Source: Catenuloplanes indicus (GTDB lineage: Bacteria > Actinomycetota > Actinomycetes > Mycobacteriales > Micromonosporaceae). Taken from it: a stretch of 64,000 bases of DNA. The stretch is from positions 3,906,001-3,970,000 of the forward strand of contig NZ_JAUSUZ010000001.1 in assembly GCF_030813715.1 (NCBI RefSeq). Direction: 5' to 3'. Below, in pieces: positions 38,603 to 48,217 of this stretch. The notes beneath the pieces were generated by a model, which was not told the origin of the DNA, did not search any database, and was given only the letters and a program-made list of their open reading frames with translations. The first letter of the stretch is position 1; each line of letters opens with the position of its first letter. The position numbers and the translations under genes were made by a program.

Positions 38603-40216
38603 TTAGCTGCGCAGGTCACGGCGGTGGTAGGCGAGCGTTCCGGCAACGGCCAGCGCGACCGCGATGCTTGTCATCGTCACGGCAGCTGGCCAGGCGACCC
38701 CGGTGAGGGGTACCGGTGCCAGATGCGGGAACGGCGACAGTTCTCTCACCCACGTGGGTGCGCCGGTGGCGTCGGCGAGGACCTGGAGCAGGAAGCCACC
38801 GGTGGCTGGCAGCGTGCCGGCGAGGACGGTCACGCGTGGTGCCCCGCCGAGAGCCAGGACGGCGGCACCGAGGCTGAGCGCGACGATCGGCAGCGTGTTG
38901 AACGTGCCGGCCAGCGCCGCCGGTAACGTCAGCCCGCCTCCGACCGCGGTCACGCCCGCCCAGGTCGCCAGCGCCGCGACGGTGAGCAGGATCAGCGCGC
39001 CGCCGGTGGTCGCGGCGGTCTCGGCCGCGAGCAGGCGGGTCCTGGTCAGTGGCGCGGCGGCGAGCGGGGTCAGGCGCCGGTCGGTCTCGGCGGCGGCGAA
39101 CGCGCCGATCCGGACCGCGGTGAACGCGCCGGCCGGGAGGGCGAGCAGCGCGAAGAGGCTGGCGGTGAAGCCCTCCACGGTGTGCATGCCGGCGAATCCG
39201 GCCTGCGCGGCCGCGTCTGCGAAGACCGCGTTGCCGGTCAGGAACTCGGTGACGGAACGGGCGGTCAGTCCGATGAGCAGGAAGTAGGCGCCGATCCCGG
39301 CGGTCCAGGCGAGCACCGGCCCGATCGCTCGGCGCACCGCGAACGCCGCCGGGCCGCCCAGCAGCCACCGCCGCGGTGCGCGGCCGGCTGCCGGTGCGGT
39401 CAGGCCACCGCCGAGGTCACGCCGGCCAACGGCGGCAAGCGCGGCCGCAGCGATCGCGAGGGCGGCGGCGGTCAGGAGCAGCAGCGGTAGCGGATCGTCG
39501 CGGCCGTACGGGGAGCTGAGGGCGAGCAGCCCGAACGGCGACAGCCAGTGCAGCCAGCCGAGCGCGGTGAGCCCGTCGCCGATCATGCGCAGCAGCAGGC
39601 CTGCGCCGAGCACGGCGATCGCCGTGCCGGTGGCCGGGGCCCGGGCCGGGAAGATCTGCGCGGAGAGGGCGGCGACCGCGACCGCGAAGAGCCCTGCAGC
39701 GGTGACTCCCGCGCCGTGCACGATCGCCCCGGCCAGGTCTGGCCCGGCGGTCCATAGCGCGGCCGTGACCGCGATGCCGGCCGTAACCGGGACGGCCGCG
39801 ATGACGGCGAGGTGCTGCAGGAAGACGGCACGCGGCGTAGATCGGCCGGCCAGCAGCAGGCTCCAGCGGCCGGCTTCCTCCTCGCCGCGCAGGACGCGGG
39901 TGGTGGTGAGCGTGGCCCAGACGGTGAGGATGACGGTCAGGACGGTGCCGATGCGCCAGACGGTGAAGCCGCCGGCGTGGTCGAGCGCGATCGGGGTGCC
40001 GAACAGGGTGCGGATGGCCGGGTTCGCCGCGATCCGCGTCAGCCCGGCCGCGGCGGCCGGATCGGCGGTCAGCCCGTCGTAGGTGGCCGTGACCAGGGCC
40101 GGCATGCCGGCGGCGAGCAGGAGAACGATCGCGCCGCCACGGCGGATCTGCCGGACGGCGAGCCCGGTGACCGCCGCGCCCGGCCGGGCCGGGAGGGTGA
40201 GCGCCGGGGCGGTCAT
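38603..40216 (-). CDS. ABC exporter permease (polyketide/ionophore exporter type)
   Basis: ATG 40216 overlaps the ATPase stop (ATGA). The 537-residue protein has about 12 hydrophobic helices in two halves, with VLRGEEEAGRWSLLLAGRST after the second helix, a segment I know from permeases of tetronasin/polyketide-type ABC exporters. It forms the membrane channel for the ATPase encoded just upstream. Substrate unknown; antibiotic or lipid-like compounds are the usual cargo of the family. Confidence 0.82.
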   Translation of the reverse strand: MTAPALTLPARPGAAVTGLAVRQIRRGGAIVLLLAAGMPALVTATYDGLTADPAAAAGLTRIAANPAIRTLFGTPIALDHAGGFTVWRIGTVLTVILTVWATLTTTRVLRGEEEAGRWSLLLAGRSTPRAVFLQHLAVIAAVPVTAGIAVTAALWTAGPDLAGAIVHGAGVTAAGLFAVAVAALSAQIFPARAPATGTAIAVLGAGLLLRMIGDGLTALGWLHWLSPFGLLALSSPYGRDDPLPLLLLTAAALAIAAAALAAVGRRDLGGGLTAPAAGRAPRRWLLGGPAAFAVRRAIGPVLAWTAGIGAYFLLIGLTARSVTEFLTGNAVFADAAAQAGFAGMHTVEGFTASLFALLALPAGAFTAVRIGAFAAAETDRRLTPLAAAPLTRTRLLAAETAATTGGALILLTVAALATWAGVTAVGGGLTLPAALAGTFNTLPIVALSLGAAVLALGGAPRVTVLAGTLPATGGFLLQVLADATGAPTWVRELSPFPHLAPVPLTGVAWPAAVTMTSIAVALAVAGTLAYHRRDLRS

Positions 40217-41106
40217 CGTCCGTTCTCCGTGCCGTAGTAGTCGAGGAACATCTCCTCGAGGCTGGGTTCGCGGACAGCGAGCGCGGTCACGTCGGCGGCG
40301 GCGAGCACCCTCAGTGCGGGCGCGGGTGGACCGGTGAGCGCGAACCGCAGCCGGCCCTCGCCCGTGGTCTGCACACCATCGACGCCGGGCACCGCGGTCA
40401 GCGCGGGCTGCTCGCCGGTGTAGCTGACCGTGACCTCGGCCCGGTGCAGCGCCCGCAGCGCCGGCACGGACGCCACCTCGACGAGCCGGCCGGCGCGCAG
40501 GATCCCCACTCGGTCGCAGACCGCCTCGACCTCGGCGAGCTGGTGCGAGCTGAGAAAGACGCTCTGCCCGCGCTCGCGCGCCTCGGCGACCGCGGCCCGG
40601 AACTGCTGCTCCATCAGCGGGTCCAGGCCGCTGGTCGGCTCGTCCAGCACGAGCAGCGGAGCGCGGGTGGCGAACGCCGCGATCAGCGCGACCTTCTGCC
40701 GGTTGCCGGTGGAGTAGGTACGCGCCGGTCGCGACGGGTCCAGGTCGAACCGCTCGACCAGGGCGTCGCGGTAGGCGATGTCGGTGCCCGGGCCGGTGGA
40801 GGCGAGCAGGTGCAGGATCTCCGCGCCGGTCAGCTGCGGCCACAGCGCCACGTCAGCCGGCACGTACGCCAGGTGCCGGTGCGCGTGGGCCACGTCGGCC
40901 GCGTCGACGCCGGCGATCAGTGCCCGCCCGGCGGTCGGGCGGGCCAGGCCGAGGATCATGCGGATCGTGGTGGATTTCCCGGCGCCGTTCGGGCCGAGGA
41001 AGCCGAAGACCTCACCGGCGCCGACGTCCAGGGTCAGGTCGTCGACGGCGGTCAGCCGGCCGTACCGTTTGGTGAGGTGGATGGTGCGCAGCACGGACTC
41101 GTCCAT
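40213..41106 (-). CDS. ABC exporter ATPase
   Basis: The 297-residue protein shows Walker A GPNGAGKSTT (about 39-48), the signature YSTGNRQKVALI (about 133), Walker B LLVLDEPTSGLDP (about 156-168) and SSHQLAEVEAVC. Members of this DrrA-like group power drug exporters. ATG 41106 is supported by the short SD region; longer frames run back through the conserved leader and are rejected. It forms an operon with the permease downstream and is controlled by the leader at 41107-41166. Confidence 0.88.
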   Translation of the reverse strand: MDESVLRTIHLTKRYGRLTAVDDLTLDVGAGEVFGFLGPNGAGKSTTIRMILGLARPTAGRALIAGVDAADVAHAHRHLAYVPADVALWPQLTGAEILHLLASTGPGTDIAYRDALVERFDLDPSRPARTYSTGNRQKVALIAAFATRAPLLVLDEPTSGLDPLMEQQFRAAVAEARERGQSVFLSSHQLAEVEAVCDRVGILRAGRLVEVASVPALRALHRAEVTVSYTGEQPALTAVPGVDGVQTTGEGRLRFALTGPPAPALRVLAAADVTALAVREPSLEEMFLDYYGTENGR

Positions 41107-41166
41107 CGGAGGAAGCCCTTCGGTCGCAAACGGATCATGACCGCCGACCAGACTTCCCGGCACACC
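41107..41166 (-). promoter_or_regulatory. Conserved 5' leader, copy A (ABC exporter)
   Basis: The RNA would start GGTGTGCCGGGAAG, T, CTGGTCGGCG, eight bases after a TACGGT -10 box (41175-41180). The next part can form CGGTC/GACCG, and GGAAGTC can pair with GGCTTCC just before the start codon. One of five copies in 4 kb. Confidence 0.75.
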
Positions 41167-41206
41167 TATCGGCCACCGTACTCCCGCCCACACCGGCGGA
41201 GAAGTG

Positions 41207-42514
41207 TCAGGACCGCGACTCGCCCTGATACACGTCCGGCACACCGTCCGCGTCGGCGTCGCGCTCCTCGATCTCGCGCAGTCGCCGGTAATGCCGGTTG
41301 CGCACACGCAGCACCACGGTTGCCAGCAGCGCCGAGAGGAACGAGCCGGCCAGGATGCCGATCCGGGCGTGCTCGTCCTTCACACTGCCGGCGCCGAACG
41401 CCAACTCGCCGATCAGCAGCGACACCGTGAACCCGATCCCGGCCAGCAGCGACAGGCCCAGCACGTCCCACCAGCCGAGCTGGTCGCCGAGCGTGGAGCG
41501 GGTGAACCGCTGCACCAGCCAGGTCGCGCCGAGCACGCCCACCGCCTTGCCGGCCACCAGCCCCACGACGATGCCGATAGTGACCGGGTCGGCCATGGTC
41601 GCGCCGAGTCCGCCCGCGCCGGCGACCGAGACGCCGGCGGCGAAGAACGCGAAGACCGGCACCGCCACGCCGGCCGAGAGCGGCCGCCAGCGGTGCTCGA
41701 AGTGCTCGGCCAGGCCCGGTCCGTCGCCGCCGGCCCGGCGGATGACCGGGACGAGGAAGCCCAGCAGGACGCCGGCGACGGTGGCGTGGACGCCGGAGGC
41801 GTGCACCAGCGCCCACGCGGCGGCGGCCAGCGGCAGCAGCAGCCACCAGGAGCGGACCCGGCGCTGCACCAGGAACCCGAACAGCCCCAGCGGAATCAGC
41901 GCCGCCGCCAGCGGCAGCAGCTGCAGCGAGCTGGTGTAGAACACCGCGATGATCAGGATGGCGAGCAGGTCGTCGACGACCGCGAGGGTGAGCAGGAACG
42001 TGCGCAGCGCGGCTGGCAGATGCGAACCGACGACGGCGAGGACGGCGAGTGCGAAGGCGATGTCGGTTGCGGTCGGCACCGCCCAGCCGGACAGCGCGCC
42101 ACCATCGGCGGTGGCGTTGATCGCGGTGTAGATGATGGCGGGTACGGCCATGCCGCCGACCGCGGCTGCGATCGGCATGACGGCGCGGCGCGGGTCGCGC
42201 AGGTCACCGGCGATGAACTCGCGTTTGAGTTCCAGCCCGGCGACGAAGAAGAAGATCGCCAGCAGACCGTCCGCGGCCCACTGCGCCAGCGTGAGGTCCA
42301 GGTGCAGCGCGTGCGGGCCGACTGTCACCTCGCTCAGCGTCCGGTACGCCTCCGACCAGGGCGAGTTCGCCCACAGCAGCGCCAGCACGGCCGCGCCCAG
42401 CAGCAGCGCGCCGCCGACGGTCTCCGCGCGCAGGATCTCGGCGATCCGCCGGGCCTCGGGCCAGCTGCGGCGGCCGAACAGGTGACGGGCGGGACGTGGC
42501 GGCACACCGGACAT
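41207..42514 (-). CDS. nhaA: Na+/H+ antiporter NhaA
   Basis: The 435-residue protein has about 12 hydrophobic helices. NhaA landmarks are [32 protein letters not shown] and [13 protein letters not shown], the last holding the paired aspartates of the ion-binding site. It exchanges sodium (or lithium) for protons across the membrane. AAGGAG precedes ATG 42514. The C-terminal tail is acidic ([11 protein letters not shown]). It carries its own leader, copy B, and promoter. Confidence 0.93.
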
Positions 42515-42570
42515 GAGACTCCTTAGGAAGGCACGACGAAACCATCGCCGACCAGCCTTCCCGGCACACC
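42515..42570 (-). promoter_or_regulatory. Conserved 5' leader, copy B (nhaA)
   Basis: GGTGTGCCGGGAAG, G, CTGGTCGGCG starts seven bases after TAGGTT (42578-42583). A small hairpin CGATG-GTTT-CGTCG follows. GGAAGGC pairs with GCCTTCC next to the AAGGAG ribosome-binding site; the base that differs from the other copies (G) is matched on the pairing side. Confidence 0.78.
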
Positions 42571-42615
42571 TGCACCCAACCTACCGTGACCGGCCGGCCG
42601 GTGCAGCGGCACAGA

Positions 42616-43902
42616 TCACCGACGCACGCCCACGACCCGCTCCAATGCGTCGACAGCGTCCGCGGCACCGTTCTCCGCGCGGATCCGCTCGCCGAGCAGC
42701 CGCGCCGCCTCCGCCATCCCCGCGTCGCGGGCGGCCTGCCGGATCGCGGCGCCGAGCGCGGCCGCGTCCAGGCGGGTCTGCGGCACCGGTGGCGGGGCGA
42801 CACCGAGCCGGTGCATGCGCCGGCCCCAGAACGGCTGGTCGGCCACGAACGGGCAGATCACCTGCGGGACACCGGCACGCGCGGCGGCCGCGGTGGTCCC
42901 GGCACCGCCGTGATGGACGATCACCGCGCACCGCGGGAACACCACCTCGTGCGGCACATCACCGGCGACGAACGCATGCCGGTCGGAGACGAACCGTTGC
43001 AGGCCACCCCAGCCACCGGCCACGACCCCCGGCAGGCCCGCCAGATCGAGGGCCTGCAGCACGGTACGGGTGGCGGCGGCCGGGGCCGGGCCGGCCATGC
43101 TGCCGAACCCGACGAACACCGGCGGCTGCCGGCCGTCCAGCAGCGCCCGCACATGCGGTTCGACAGCCCCGCCGGCGGTGGTGGTGGCCGGTGGGGTGAA
43201 CCAGTAGCCGGTGACCTGCGCCGTGGGGGGCCAGTCCGCCGGGCGCGGCAGGACCGCCGGGCTGATCGCGTGCAGCACCGGCGCCGGCCCGCCGTCGGGG
43301 CGCCGCGCCGGATCGTGCCGGCCGCGCCGCCGTGGCAGGCCCAGCCCGGAACGCCACCGGTCGACGGTGCGGCCGAACATCAGCGCCGGCGCCTGCATCC
43401 CGGCGTAGGTGGCCCGGTTCAGCCGGCCCGGCAGCCGGTCGGAGACGTCCTGGCCCGGCCACGGGAACTCCCGGGTCGGCACGTACATCGGCAGAGGCAG
43501 GCCCAGCACGGCGGGCACGCCGAGTTTCTCGGCCACGTGCTGCCCGGCGATCACCTGACCGTTGTGCACGATCACGTCCGCGCCGGCACCCTCGCCGGTC
43601 GAGGCGACCTGCCAGCAGTCGTCGAGGACCCGGCCGAACATCGCCGGCATCCGCCGCATGAGCGCCGCCTTCCCCCGGATCCCGCCCTTGGCGACGTCCT
43701 CGACGCCCGAACCGTCGTCTAGCACCCGCAGCGGCCCGTCGTCGAGCACAGCGAAGGGCACGGCGTGGACGGCGGCCAGTGCGGCGAACCGCGCAGGTGC
43801 CGCGATGAGCGCTTCGTGACCGCGGTGCCGCAGGTGGTGGGCGAGGGCGATGAACGGCTGCACGTCGCCGCGGGTGCCCAGCGTCAGCATCAGAACCTTC
43901 AT
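42616..43902 (-). CDS. GT1-family glycosyltransferase (macrolide/sterol type)
   Basis: From ATG 43902 the 428-residue protein starts MKVLMLTLGTRGDVQPFIAL, the N-terminal nucleotide-sugar fold start of GT1/GT28 enzymes. It has VFVGFGSMAG and the donor-binding HHGGAGTTAAAARAGVPQVI, then PFVADQPFWGRRM near the C-terminus. It moves a sugar from a nucleotide donor to a lipid, polyketide or antibiotic. In an exporter/antiporter cluster, antibiotic inactivation is plausible but unproven. It has its own leader, copy C. Confidence 0.88.
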   Translation of the reverse strand: MKVLMLTLGTRGDVQPFIALAHHLRHRGHEALIAAPARFAALAAVHAVPFAVLDDGPLRVLDDGSGVEDVAKGGIRGKAALMRRMPAMFGRVLDDCWQVASTGEGAGADVIVHNGQVIAGQHVAEKLGVPAVLGLPLPMYVPTREFPWPGQDVSDRLPGRLNRATYAGMQAPALMFGRTVDRWRSGLGLPRRRGRHDPARRPDGGPAPVLHAISPAVLPRPADWPPTAQVTGYWFTPPATTTAGGAVEPHVRALLDGRQPPVFVGFGSMAGPAPAAATRTVLQALDLAGLPGVVAGGWGGLQRFVSDRHAFVAGDVPHEVVFPRCAVIVHHGGAGTTAAAARAGVPQVICPFVADQPFWGRRMHRLGVAPPPVPQTRLDAAALGAAIRQAARDAGMAEAARLLGERIRAENGAADAVDALERVVGVRR

Positions 43903-43959
43903 GGGTGAGCCCTTTCGTCGCACGAAAAAGGTCGCGCCGACCAGACTTCCCGGCTCACC
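43903..43959 (-). promoter_or_regulatory. Conserved 5' leader, copy C (glycosyltransferase)
   Basis: GGTGAGCCGGGAAG, T, CTGGTCGGCG starts seven bases after TACGCT (43967-43972). Here GTG is GAG, and the region before the start codon reads GGGCTCACC, exactly complementary to GGTGAGCC. Confidence 0.76.
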
Positions 43960-44617
43960 GGCCGTCAGCGTACGCCCACGACGACCTGTCGCGCAGCATG
44001 GCGGCGCTGACCCAGCACAGTCCGCACGCCATCGACAGCAGTTCCAGCAGCCCGGCCGGCCCGGTGCCGATGATGTCGCGCTGTACCAGCCGGAACACGA
44101 TCCCCGCCGCGACCGCCAGCCCCGCCACCGCCCAAGCCACGGCCACACACACGGCCGCCCACCGGAACCGGCCGCGCCGCCGGGCATCTCGACCGGCCAC
44201 GACGGCTGCGGCGATCATCCCGGCGAACAGCATCGTGCCGCCGACCTGATGCACCGCCCCGGTCGCGGTGATCGCTTCTGGGGCGGCGGGCGGATATCCC
44301 AGGGCCGGATCCGTCGGGAACACCCCCGCGACGATCAGCCCCGCCGCCACCACACCCAGCAGGCGCCACTGCCACACCGGCCCCGGCATCGGGCGGCGGC
44401 CAGCGATCAGTACCGCCACCAGCAGCAACACCCCACAGACCGCGAACAGCAGCCGGATCAGAACGTTGCCGTCGCCCGAGGTCAGCTGGCTGACGCCGTG
44501 ACGCACCTGGTCATAGCCGTCCCGCGTCGCACCGCCCCACAGCAGACCGACGAGCAGCAGCACGGGGCAGACCGCACCGCACAAGAAAGTCCATCGCAGC
44601 ACTCGAGTGGCGCGCAT
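43955..44617 (-). CDS. DUF998 membrane protein
   Basis: From ATG 44617 the 220-residue protein has about six hydrophobic helices: FLCGAVCPVLLLVGLLWGG, then RPMPGPVWQWRLLGVVAAGL and further pairs. DGYDQVRHGVSQLTSGDG in the first loop is typical of DUF998. Function is unknown for the family. The leader, copy D, lies directly upstream; the 3' end overlaps the start of leader C by 5 nt. Confidence 0.78.
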   Translation of the reverse strand: MRATRVLRWTFLCGAVCPVLLLVGLLWGGATRDGYDQVRHGVSQLTSGDGNVLIRLLFAVCGVLLLVAVLIAGRRPMPGPVWQWRLLGVVAAGLIVAGVFPTDPALGYPPAAPEAITATGAVHQVGGTMLFAGMIAAAVVAGRDARRRGRFRWAAVCVAVAWAVAGLAVAAGIVFRLVQRDIIGTGPAGLLELLSMACGLCWVSAAMLRDRSSWAYADGR

Positions 44618-44653
44618 GATGACTCCGACGCCGACCAGACTTCCCGGCACACC
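44618..44653 (-). promoter_or_regulatory. Conserved 5' leader, copy D (DUF998 gene)
   Basis: GGTGTGCCGGGAAG, T, CTGGTCGGCG followed at once by CGGAGTC and the start codon; it is the shortest copy and lacks the second hairpin. A likely promoter (GTGACA, 17 nt, TACAGT) ends 24 nt upstream rather than 7. Confidence 0.7.
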
Positions 44654-44665
44654 ATCAGACGACAT

Positions 44666-45006
44666 CGATTGCCGTGCACTGTAGACCGCCTGCCGCTCCT
44701 TGTCACGCTGCTGATCGTCGCGCCGGCTGGCCTGCCGCCATGGCGCACGAGCGCCGGCAATTCGACGGGTGAATGAGTGTCCTCGCCAAGGGCCAGCAGA
44801 GTTGCGACTGAGAAACCGACTCGACTCCTCGCGGTCGGCCCGACGACGGCGTCATCACGCACGCGGGGCTGACGTCCGGGCAGCCTGTCACTGAGCTGTG
44901 TGACAGCGCGGCCGACCGGATTCGTGTCGGGCGGTTCACCGCGCGGCGTCCCCGAGGCCGGTCCCGCCGGCATGCCATGCTGCCCGTCTCGGAGGCGTCC
45001 CGCTGA
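44666..45006. other. Divergent promoter region, no gene seen
   Basis: This stretch separates the minus-strand DUF998 gene from the plus-strand Trk genes. It holds the promoters of leaders D and E at its two ends. The middle shows no credible coding frame. Confidence 0.5.
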
Positions 45007-45019
45007 TACGCTGCGCGCA

Positions 45020-45078
45020 GGTGTGCCGGGAAGCCTGGTCGGCGATGTTCGATTCATCGTGCCCACAGGAAGCCCCGC
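45020..45078 (+). promoter_or_regulatory. Conserved 5' leader, copy E (trkH)
   Basis: GGTGTGCCGGGAAG, C, CTGGTCGGCG starts seven bases after TACGCT (45007-45012). The following hairpin is CGATG-TTCGATT-CATCG. An AGGA site near 45,068-45,071 precedes the small leader reading frame at 45083. Confidence 0.75.
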
Positions 45079-45082
45079 CACC

Positions 45083-45220
45083 ATGTCTCTGCTGCCACCG
45101 TGTACGCCGATATCACCGGCACCGGTCTACCGTGACCCCGCCTCGGGCCGACTTGAGCCGCGGTGCGTGCCGGGGCGGGCGAGGCTGCCGTTGCGATCAC
45201 CACGCCGCACCGGATGCTGA
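45083..45220 (+). CDS. Possible leader peptide upstream of trkH (45 aa)
   Basis: ATG 45083, behind AGGAAG, encodes MSLLPPCTPISPAPVYRDPA and ends TGA at 45218-45220, which overlaps the trkH ATG at 45214. Such overlap is typical of translational coupling. It is proline-rich at the start, which could stall ribosomes. It may equally be a chance frame. Confidence 0.35.
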   Translation: MSLLPPCTPISPAPVYRDPASGRLEPRCVPGRARLPLRSPRRTGC

Positions 45221-46602
45221 CCCGGCGCGGACGCGAGATCCTAGCCGGGCCAGCACGCGCGTGGCGGCGGCGAGCCGACCGGTTCCGGCATCCCGCCCAG
45301 GTGATCACGGTCGGGTTCGGTGCGGCGGTCGCGGCCGGCACCGGGTTGCTGAGCCTGCCGTGGGCGACCGCGTCGGATGAACCTGCGTCGCTGGTCGACG
45401 CGTTGTTCACGGCGACGTCCGCGGTCTGTGTGACGGGCCTGGCCACGGTCGACACCGGCACCCACTGGTCGCCGTTCGGGCAGGCGGTCATCCTGCTGCT
45501 GATCCAGGCCGGGGGCTTGGGGATCATGACGCTGGCTACGATGCTGACCCTGCTGCTGTCCCGCCGGCTCGGGCTGCGTGCGAGGTTTCTGGCGCAGGCG
45601 GAGACGAAGAGTCTCAGCCTGCACGACGTGCGTGGGCTGGTGCGCCGCATCGTGCTGTTCAGCCTCGGCACCGAAGCGCTCGTCGCCGCTGTACTGACCA
45701 TCAGACTGATCACCGGCTACGGGCTCGCACCGGCGGATGCGCTCTACAGCGGTGTGTTCCATGCGATCTCCGCGTTCAACAACGCCGGGTTCTCTCTCCA
45801 CGCCGACGGCCTGGTCCGCTACGCCGGCGATGCGTGGATCTGCCTGACCGTGGCCGCGGCGGTCATCGTCGGCGGTCTGGGCTTCCCGGTCGTCTTCGAG
45901 CTCGCCCGCGGATGGCGGCGCCCGGGCCGCTGGTCGGTGATGACCCGCATCACCGTCACCCTGACTGCGGTCCTGCTCGCCGCGGGCACGGCCGTGTTCA
46001 CGGCGGCGGAATGGACGAACGCCCGTACCCTCGGCGCCCTTGCCCCGGGTGACCGGCTGCTGGCCGGGTTCTTCGCCTCCGCGATGGCGCGGACCGCCGG
46101 GTTCAACAGCGTCGACATCGGCGCGCTGCGGCCGGAGAGCCTGCTCGCCACGGACGTGCTGATGTTCATAGGTGGCGGCAGCGCCGGCACCGCGGGCGGG
46201 ATCAAGGTCACCACGTTCGGGGTGCTGGCGTTCATGCTCTGGTCGGAGATCCGCGGCCGGGCTCACGTCAACGCCGGGCGCCGCCGTATCCCCGCCACCA
46301 ACCAGCGCCAGGCTCTCGCGATCGTCCTGCTCAGCGTCGGCACGGTCATCGCCGCCACCTTCACGCTGCTGGCCGTGACCACGCACGCCCTCGACGCGGT
46401 GCTGTTCGAGACGATCTCGGCGTTCGCGACCGTCGGCCTGTCCACCGGCATCACCGCGGACCTGCCCGCGCAGGCGCAGCTGCTGCTGGTGGCGCTGATG
46501 TTCGCCGGGCGGATCGGCCCGCTGACCCTGGCCTCCGCGCTGGCGCTCCGCGACCGTGACCAGCGCTACGAACTGCCCGAGGAGAGAACCATCGTTGGCT
46601 GA
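45214..46602 (+). CDS. trkH: TrkH/KtrB-type potassium transporter membrane subunit
   Basis: From ATG 45214 the protein has 462 residues (an in-frame GTG 45163 would add 17). About eight to ten hydrophobic helices and repeated P-loops are visible: LFTATSAVCVTGLATVDTGT, SGVFHAISAFNNAGFSLHAD, AMARTAGFNSVDIGAL, SAFATVGLSTGI. The glycine-containing loops form the K+ selectivity filter. It takes up potassium together with the cytoplasmic RCK subunit encoded next. Confidence 0.9.
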   Translation: MLTRRGREILAGPARAWRRRADRFRHPAQVITVGFGAAVAAGTGLLSLPWATASDEPASLVDALFTATSAVCVTGLATVDTGTHWSPFGQAVILLLIQAGGLGIMTLATMLTLLLSRRLGLRARFLAQAETKSLSLHDVRGLVRRIVLFSLGTEALVAAVLTIRLITGYGLAPADALYSGVFHAISAFNNAGFSLHADGLVRYAGDAWICLTVAAAVIVGGLGFPVVFELARGWRRPGRWSVMTRITVTLTAVLLAAGTAVFTAAEWTNARTLGALAPGDRLLAGFFASAMARTAGFNSVDIGALRPESLLATDVLMFIGGGSAGTAGGIKVTTFGVLAFMLWSEIRGRAHVNAGRRRIPATNQRQALAIVLLSVGTVIAATFTLLAVTTHALDAVLFETISAFATVGLSTGITADLPAQAQLLLVALMFAGRIGPLTLASALALRDRDQRYELPEERTIVG

Positions 46603-47314: not shown

Positions 47315-48217
47315 ATGGCGCCACGCAATACCGCCGCGCAGACCGCGTACGGCCCGATGGTCATCGCCGCCGCCGAACACGCGCGGCCGCCTGGTCAGCG
47401 CCTGTACGACGATCCGCTCGCGGTCCGCATGCTGCCCACCGCTCAGCGCTGGATCGCCCGAAGCTGCCGGTGGGAGTCGGTCTACCGGATGCTGGTCGCC
47501 GCCACCGACGCCCGCGCACACGGGCTGTGGGCCGGTGTGCTGTGCCGCAAACGGTATGCCACCGACCAGATCAAAGCGGCGCTCGACGCCGGCATCGGGC
47601 AGTACGTCATCCTCGGTGCCGGTCTCGACAGCAGCCCGTACCGGCTCATCGCCCCGGCCGGCGCCCACGCCTGGGAACTCGACCTGCCCGCGAACATCGC
47701 CGTCAAACGCCGGCGGACCCGGTCTCTGCCGGCTGGGCTGGTCGCCGGCACCACGCTCGTGCCGATCGACTTCGCCACCGACGACCTGACCGGCACGCTG
47801 CGTGCGGCCGGATTCGCGCCCGCGGAGCCGGCGATGTTCGTCTGGGAGGCGGTGACTCAGTACCTCACCGAGGACGCCGTTCTCGGGACGCTGGCCTTCC
47901 TCGGTACCGCCGCACCCGGCAGCCGGCTGATCTTCACCTATCTGCGCGCCGACTACCTCGACGGCACCAGCGACTACGACGCCGCACCCGCCCGGCGCGA
48001 CTTCGTCGACCGGCAGCACATCTGGCGGTTCGGTCTCGACCCCGTCGAGATCACCACACTTCTGCGACCCTACGGATGGATCGTGCGTGAGCACGTCGGC
48101 GCGCAGGAGTACACGAGCCGGTATCTCGCACCGATCGGGCGTGACCTGCCGGTCTCCGGCATCGAACGCTTCGTCCTCGCCGAGCGCCAGGACGCGACCG
48201 CCGGGGACTCCCGATGA
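47315..48217 (+). CDS. SAM-dependent methyltransferase (leucine carboxyl-type family)
   Basis: GAAGGAG precedes ATG 47315. The 300-residue protein reads RLYDDPLAVRML near the start, then YVILGAGLDSSPYRL (about 99-113), WELDLPANIAVKRRR and FVWEAVTQYLTEDAV. These are marks of the TIGR00027/PPM-like methyltransferase family common in mycobacteria and actinomycetes. Substrate unknown. It overlaps the next gene (ATGA) and lies 39 nt after trkA, so it may be co-transcribed with the Trk genes. Confidence 0.82.
   Translation: MAPRNTAAQTAYGPMVIAAAEHARPPGQRLYDDPLAVRMLPTAQRWIARSCRWESVYRMLVAATDARAHGLWAGVLCRKRYATDQIKAALDAGIGQYVILGAGLDSSPYRLIAPAGAHAWELDLPANIAVKRRRTRSLPAGLVAGTTLVPIDFATDDLTGTLRAAGFAPAEPAMFVWEAVTQYLTEDAVLGTLAFLGTAAPGSRLIFTYLRADYLDGTSDYDAAPARRDFVDRQHIWRFGLDPVEITTLLRPYGWIVREHVGAQEYTSRYLAPIGRDLPVSGIERFVLAERQDATAGDSR

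Follow-up and report, generated by a model that had tools for sequence, protein, structure and literature searches.

In many Actinobacteria the same tiny hairpin appears to open the mRNAs of sodium/proton antiporters and of related cation-transport genes. This element, 24–25 nt long, is described here from a 64,000-nucleotide stretch of the Catenuloplanes indicus genome (contig NZ_JAUSUZ010000001.1, positions 3,906,001 to 3,970,000; the whole stretch is hereafter the window), and its conservation and genomic setting make it a candidate new family of cis-regulatory RNA, probably tied to Na+, Li+ or pH. If this is true, a large bacterial phylum, antibiotic producers included, would share a control signal for salt and pH homeostasis. 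The element would then mark which of two types of NhaA falls under that control, would assign to a single regulon several genes whose role is unknown (DUF998, DUF2254, a CBS protein) and would make it directly testable what signal these bacteria sense.

The window contains five copies of GGTGTGCCGGGAAGNCTGGTCGGCG with at most one mismatch, against an average of 0.00 in 100 shuffles, each at the place where an earlier note, made from the letters of the window, had put it. Related sites were fetched with an exact 18-base pattern, at a capped number of loci per genome search, and are a set biased accordingly. Dropping duplicates and sites less than 50 nt from the start or less than 400 nt from the end of their locus left at least 200 sites (the 200 referred to below); removal of the 11 of these 200 that have no GG-N-G-N-G flank left 189, and the gene counts use the 186 that remain after three sites with no assigned gene were set aside. 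The consensus of the 189 filtered sites is GGuGyGCCGGGAAGNCUGGUCGGCR, with little conservation beyond these 25 nt, and the four flanking Gs were present in 96–98% of the 200 sites before the flank filter was applied. The two variable positions noticed originally (the T/A two bases before CCGG, and the N) were confirmed. A TAnnnT box stands between −22 and −11 in 148 of the 189 sites (at −19 in 98 and at −20 in 30), no −35 element stands out upstream of them, and in 128 the consensus begins 7–8 nt past the box. Since this spacing is found in most sites, we infer that transcription starts at the block, which is thus the presumed extreme 5′ end of the mRNA; the promoter distance across the family supports the placement first made from the window, where four of the five copies have the box 7–8 nt 5′ of the block and copy 4 is the exception. 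The median distance between the start of the core and that of the assigned gene is 57 nt (47–60 nt in 95 of 186). Three Streptomyces loci (L102, L159 and L177) have no TAnnnT at the usual place and carry upstream a GTCAAG stretch that is perhaps another type of promoter.

The genes that follow the element form a regulon-like set. NhaA accounts for 100 of the 186 next genes and Na_H_Exchanger for 22, each member of these two clusters having been scanned singly; outside them a single representative of each cluster was scanned (20 of the 31 clusters in all). Judged by their representatives, the other antiporter-type genes comprise three Na/Ca exchangers and one of the Mrp type, so that NhaA is joined by 26 other Na+/H+ or Na/Ca exchangers. 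Next come ABC ATPases and CBS proteins (10 each), five permease-like genes whose representative has no Pfam match, and four CitMHS-like genes, three of them CitMHS/ArsB-like. The clusters of three are TrkH, CitMHS/ArsB-like, Na/Ca exchanger, alpha/beta hydrolase and PPDK_N, and the smaller ones include Mrp-type, CitMHS_2, TrkA_N, universal stress protein, LCM methyltransferase, DUF2254 and DUF998. A link to ion transport, proposed from the five window genes, is supported by these counts, and an excess of the element upstream of antiporters is found in other genomes. The earlier note had named a lack of covariation or of such an excess as grounds for refutation; both are present, the covariation being described below. 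In a census of NhaA in 59 genomes, which after exclusion of 11 fragments or weak matches comprised 61 near full-length genes, the element lies within 500 nt of 31 genes, and three more have a one-base loop variant. It accompanies 30 of the 44 genes whose domain match is under 1190 nt and 1 of the 17 whose match is 1197 nt or longer; the three genes with the loop variant are of the short type and all belong to one genus. There are thus two length types of NhaA, and the long one almost never has the element (1/17), even in genomes that bear it.

The core CCGGGAAGNCTGGTNNGC occurs in 49 of 61 genomes, the source genome counted, and a reversed control gave one match (1/61). A looser pattern with one extra free base matched 160 of 246 genomes of the class, some of these matches being chance-like, as the reversed control also matched about a dozen genomes; a covariance model built from 66 distinct copies found the element in 73 of 118 sampled class genomes at E ≤ 0.001. 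In the phylum sample, searched with up to three mismatches, exact copies outside the class are among the matches listed; the loose count there is 152 of 296 genomes, in which the control columns show that chance matches are included. By placement, 116 of the 189 sites are from Actinomycetota, 3 from Chloroflexota, 1 from Pseudomonadota and 69 unplaced; the Pseudomonadota site, which has no assigned gene, may be a chance match. Carriage by viruses was considered and rejected, as all eight matches on virus contigs (two with identical surroundings) are without the flanking G pattern and look like chance. The source genome itself has the 18-base core ten times without mismatch; an eleventh copy, altered at one base, precedes a Na_H_Exchanger gene. 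Its element-led cassette is partly duplicated, the ABC, NhaA and glycosyltransferase genes recurring near 212 kb (211.5–214.3 kb) and TrkH near 1.98 Mb. In genome G001, similarly spaced copies occur at more than one locus. Some copies form divergent pairs 109–137 nt apart (L091, 3653/3808; L141, 7300/7427; L151, 1278/1417; L184, 512/664), which suggests divergently transcribed genes, each with its own element.

The block contains a hairpin whose stem P1 pairs GCC with GGC around the nearly invariant 13-nt loop GGGAAGNCUGGUC. A search of 394 class genomes for blocks with one stem base different yielded 12 places. Seven of these have a −10 box, and all seven carry the compensating change (GTC/GAC in five, GCT/AGC in two); of the five without a box none does. 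Three of the seven compensated variants were known earlier and prompted the test, and four were new. As compensation is found in every boxed variant and in none of the others, the element is best read as acting as RNA, not as DNA or peptide. In an alignment of 37 sequences, picked so as to hold variants, every P1 cell pairs, two pairs change on both sides, and the seven double-changed cells were equalled in 0 of 500 shuffles and fall away in slid-partner controls. The step below P1 is mostly non-Watson–Crick, U.G or C.A: among the 200 sites the combinations T/G (91), C/A (51), A/A (14), T/A (11) and C/G (1) were counted, and on a tree of 95 NhaA proteins the two positions changed jointly in about 8 of 10 independent pairs and in opposition in 0 of 10 (median p 0.008). 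The coupling points to a wobble-shaped pair or, alternatively, to selection that keeps the stem from lengthening. The compensated pairing is located within the block (GCC/GGC) and not, as the earlier note had proposed, between the block and the ribosome-binding site (RBS). A loop variant, with CGGGUC replacing CUGGUC, precedes NhaA in one genus (L284, L286, L288) and is also found in two genomes farther off (L305, L306).

Two readings in which the block does not work as RNA were weighed against these observations. It would be very unlikely, in our estimate, that a transcription factor binds the block as a DNA operator just downstream of the start; the strong conservation of the block and its position at +1 would suit an operator, GCC-N13-GGC is formally an inverted repeat, and the compensated arms alone would be compatible with it, but the 13-nt centre is asymmetric, the base of the stem couples as U.G/C.A rather than as the palindromic T-A/C-G, and complementarity to the downstream RNA exceeds that of shuffles (see below). 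Hardly any credence can be given to a leader peptide read as GTG TGC CGG GAA GTC TGG TCG GCG. A GTG does open the block in most copies, but its T is A, C or G in 21% of sites, which destroys the start, and the free base N falls at a second codon position where third positions are fixed; this pattern of variable bases refutes a peptide as the general explanation. Two other RNA structures were also discarded. The alternative hairpin GCCGG/CUGGU, which ViennaRNA prefers, has no covariation and leaves some variants unpaired, and a two-tier G-quadruplex acting as ion sensor would have its fourth GG tract broken in the seven compensated variants (L257, L258, L259, L261, L262, L265 and L267) and its third in L303.

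Downstream of the hairpin, complements of GGUCGG are found in 41 of the 189 sites against 12.9 expected, and complements of the 5′ arm are avoided. Pairing was tested in those of the 189 sites with an assigned start 44–80 or 44–90 nt from the core (123 and 130 sites; 122 in one part). Over 130 sites the 3′ half of the block pairs with downstream sequence more strongly than shuffles do (p 3e-5) and the 5′ half more weakly (p 2e-5); the mean P1 probability computed with ViennaRNA over 123 sites is 0.002 in natural leaders versus 0.063 with shuffled downstream sequence. In the 52 sites with GACC at offset 9–16 the preceding bases are C at −1 in 40, C at −2 in 27 and G at −3 in 25. An H-type pseudoknot between GGUC and GACC was therefore rejected, since the bases 5′ of GACC fit the full GCCGACC and a competing stem, P2, fits better.

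The earlier note had proposed that the block masks translation starts by pairing beside the RBS, with matched changes in three copies. The complementarity is present in copies 2 and 3; in copy 3 the 8-nt complement GGCTCACC lies immediately 5′ of the glycosyltransferase ATG. Permutation lends it partial support, 12 sites having complements in their own leader to 7-mers from the 5′ end versus 4.8 by permutation (0 of 500 as high) and 11 versus 6.8 for 6-mers around the N (14 of 500), neither count being corrected for kinship, but the complements fall at scattered places, in the leader as well as in the coding region. The switch as proposed found no support: pairing of the 5′ half with the RBS was not better than shuffles over 130 sites (p=0.22), and RBS masking lacks support as a general mechanism, neither the pairing nor the Shine-Dalgarno access tests giving a signal. 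That no masking is seen would suit a constitutive 5′ hairpin that stabilises the mRNAs of membrane transporters, or enhances their translation, and senses nothing, as would the presumed 5′-terminal place and the short leader. We nevertheless think this improbable, given the narrow gene set, the presence within one genome of one NhaA type with the element and another without it, and a loop that in our judgement is conserved far beyond the need of a stabiliser.

Our tentative preference, held at somewhat below even confidence, is that the hairpin is itself the sensor, a very small riboswitch for a monovalent cation (Na+, Li+) or for pH. P1 and the loop would form first as the RNA emerges from the polymerase; the signal, most likely Na+, Li+ or pH and possibly a protein that reports it, would hold P1 and so keep the leader in one state. 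When the signal is lacking, a downstream GCCGACC, where present, would take the 3′ arm GGUCGGC to form P2 and the leader, of about 60 nt, would refold, the outcome being read at the translation start or in the life time of the mRNA. Direct sensing is preferred because the gene set resembles the targets of the Li+ and Na+ riboswitches, as far as these are given in PMC9646797 and PMC9337991, and because no partner protein is apparent, no search having been aimed at one. In its widest version the proposal is that a 24-nt hairpin, an unusually small riboswitch shared across the phylum, stands at the start of the transcript, responds to Na+, Li+ or protons and governs cation/proton antiport in most Actinobacteria; the U.G/C.A step at the stem base hints at a wobble geometry, which a protonated C.A pair can adopt. 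This version we regard as rather doubtful. Were it to bind an ion unaided, the element would rank with the smallest natural aptamers familiar to us.

This small size also makes a different reading nearly as likely, and a real possibility, namely that the hairpin is the site of an actinobacterial RNA-binding protein that controls translation or decay in a cation-homeostasis regulon. Protein sites typically look like this element, being small hairpins in which the loop hardly varies and stem changes are compensated; little is conserved beyond the 25 nt, and there are up to 12 copies per genome (in G001); set against this, the ten window proteins scanned, in work not aimed at finding such a protein, included no candidate, and we know of no cognate protein. 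Several further observations weigh against direct sensing by a P1/P2 switch. A single hairpin of 24 nt is smaller than the familiar ion aptamers, which favours a protein. The ABC exporter, glycosyltransferase, DUF998 and PPDK_N targets are not obvious cation genes. The searched stretch has no GACC in 106 of the 189 sites, including four of the five in the window (copies 2 to 5), and P2 must therefore be optional; a control with the reversed 3′ half also reached p 0.04 against downstream sequence, and predicted Shine-Dalgarno access was unchanged whether or not P1 was held, in sites with a gene 44–90 nt from the core. As to P1 itself, the isolated 26-mer is predicted by ViennaRNA to fold as GCCGG/CUGGU instead, two of five measures on the 37-sequence alignment did not exceed shuffles (pairs changed on both sides, 35/500; pair types, 500/500), and the A.A (14) and T-A (11) combinations at the stem base misfit a strict wobble rule.

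The five copies of the window and the features around them are as follows.
40213–41106, minus strand: ABC transporter ATPase gene (DrrA-like), behind copy 1 (Pfam PF00005, first codon left out of the search)
41142–41166, minus strand: leader element, copy 1, where the ABC-exporter mRNA presumably begins
41175–41180, minus strand: −10 box TACGGT of copy 1, separated from the block by 8 nt, position as in the family
41207–42514, minus strand: NhaA Na+/H+ antiporter, behind copy 2 (PF06965, E 2.9e-132)
42546–42570, minus strand: copy 2, where the nhaA mRNA presumably begins
42578–42583, minus strand: −10 box TAGGTT of copy 2, read from the sequence
42616–43902, minus strand: glycosyltransferase (GT28 N-terminal / EryCIII-like C-terminal, Pfam), behind copy 3
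43935–43959, minus strand: copy 3, where the glycosyltransferase mRNA presumably begins
43967–43972, minus strand: −10 box TACGCT of copy 3, read from the sequence
43955–44617, minus strand: DUF998 membrane protein, behind copy 4 (PF06197)
44629–44653, minus strand: copy 4, before DUF998, without TAnnnT box
45007–45012, plus strand: −10 box TACGCT of copy 5, read from the sequence
45020–45044, plus strand: copy 5, where the trkH mRNA presumably begins; its stem pairs GCC 45025–45027 with GGC 45041–45043
45083–45220, plus strand: 45-codon open reading frame (ORF) that separates copy 5 from trkH; its stop and the trkH start overlap (ATGCTGA)
45214–46602, plus strand: TrkH cation transporter, behind copy 5 (PF02386, E 4.4e-54, searched as 45163–46602)

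Pfam bears out the five targets named originally (ABC ATPase, NhaA, glycosyltransferase, DUF998 and TrkH), with the amendment that the fifth transcript reads the 45-codon ORF before TrkH. The overlap of its stop with the trkH ATG at 45214 suggests translational coupling, and the second trkH copy of the same genome (locus L004) keeps the ORF with one residue changed. In copy 4 only 11 nt separate the 25-nt block from the DUF998 ATG. Further downstream of trkH and a TrkA-like gene, at 47315–48217, lies an LCM-type methyltransferase; another LCM gene, at locus L141, has an element copy of its own.

The supposition that the element matches no described RNA family is upheld by Rfam 15, which gave no match at the window copies and, in 20 further copy-bearing loci, matched three tRNAs only, none at a copy; a search of 4.2 kb with E up to 5 returned one weak, unrelated sRNA match. 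A description of the element was not found by full-text search of open-licence PMC papers. Membership in a described cation riboswitch (Li+-I, Li+-II or Na+-I) would be suggested by similar target genes, as far as PMC9646797 and PMC9337991 give them, but it is extremely unlikely: at the window copies and the 20 loci no Li+-I or Na+-I model matched at its gathering score, and the Li+-II model (RF03038, nhaA-II) reached at best 23.0 bits in the source genome versus a cut-off of 70.4, none of its nine weak places being a copy.

The element shares features with known systems. With small protein-binding leader hairpins, such as the PyrR sites, it has in common that one hairpin, its loop invariant, sits in the 5′ untranslated region; it differs from them in standing at the presumed first transcribed base. 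The Li+-I (nhaA-I) and Li+-II (nhaA-II) riboswitches are presented in PMC9646797 as 5′ leader RNAs found most often before nhaA, with a role in cation export, and the element is likewise a leader RNA mostly before nhaA; the word “actinobacteria” is absent from the main text of that article. Unlike the nhaA-II model, with its 84 positions, the element has 24–25 nt, and that model has no covariance match at the copies. The Na+-I riboswitch (DUF1646), which according to PMC9337991 precedes Na+/H+ antiporters and other sodium genes and was studied there in a construct of 66 nt that has stems P1 and P2 and controls termination, resembles the element in standing before Na+/H+ antiporter genes; it differs in that its Rfam model does not match the copies and in that most leaders of the element are, to judge by their median core-to-gene distance of 57 nt, probably too short for a terminator. 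As in riboswitches generally, a conserved structured RNA is found in the 5′ leaders of functionally related genes, and by its context the element would resemble the leader of a cation riboswitch that lies outside the described ones tested here.

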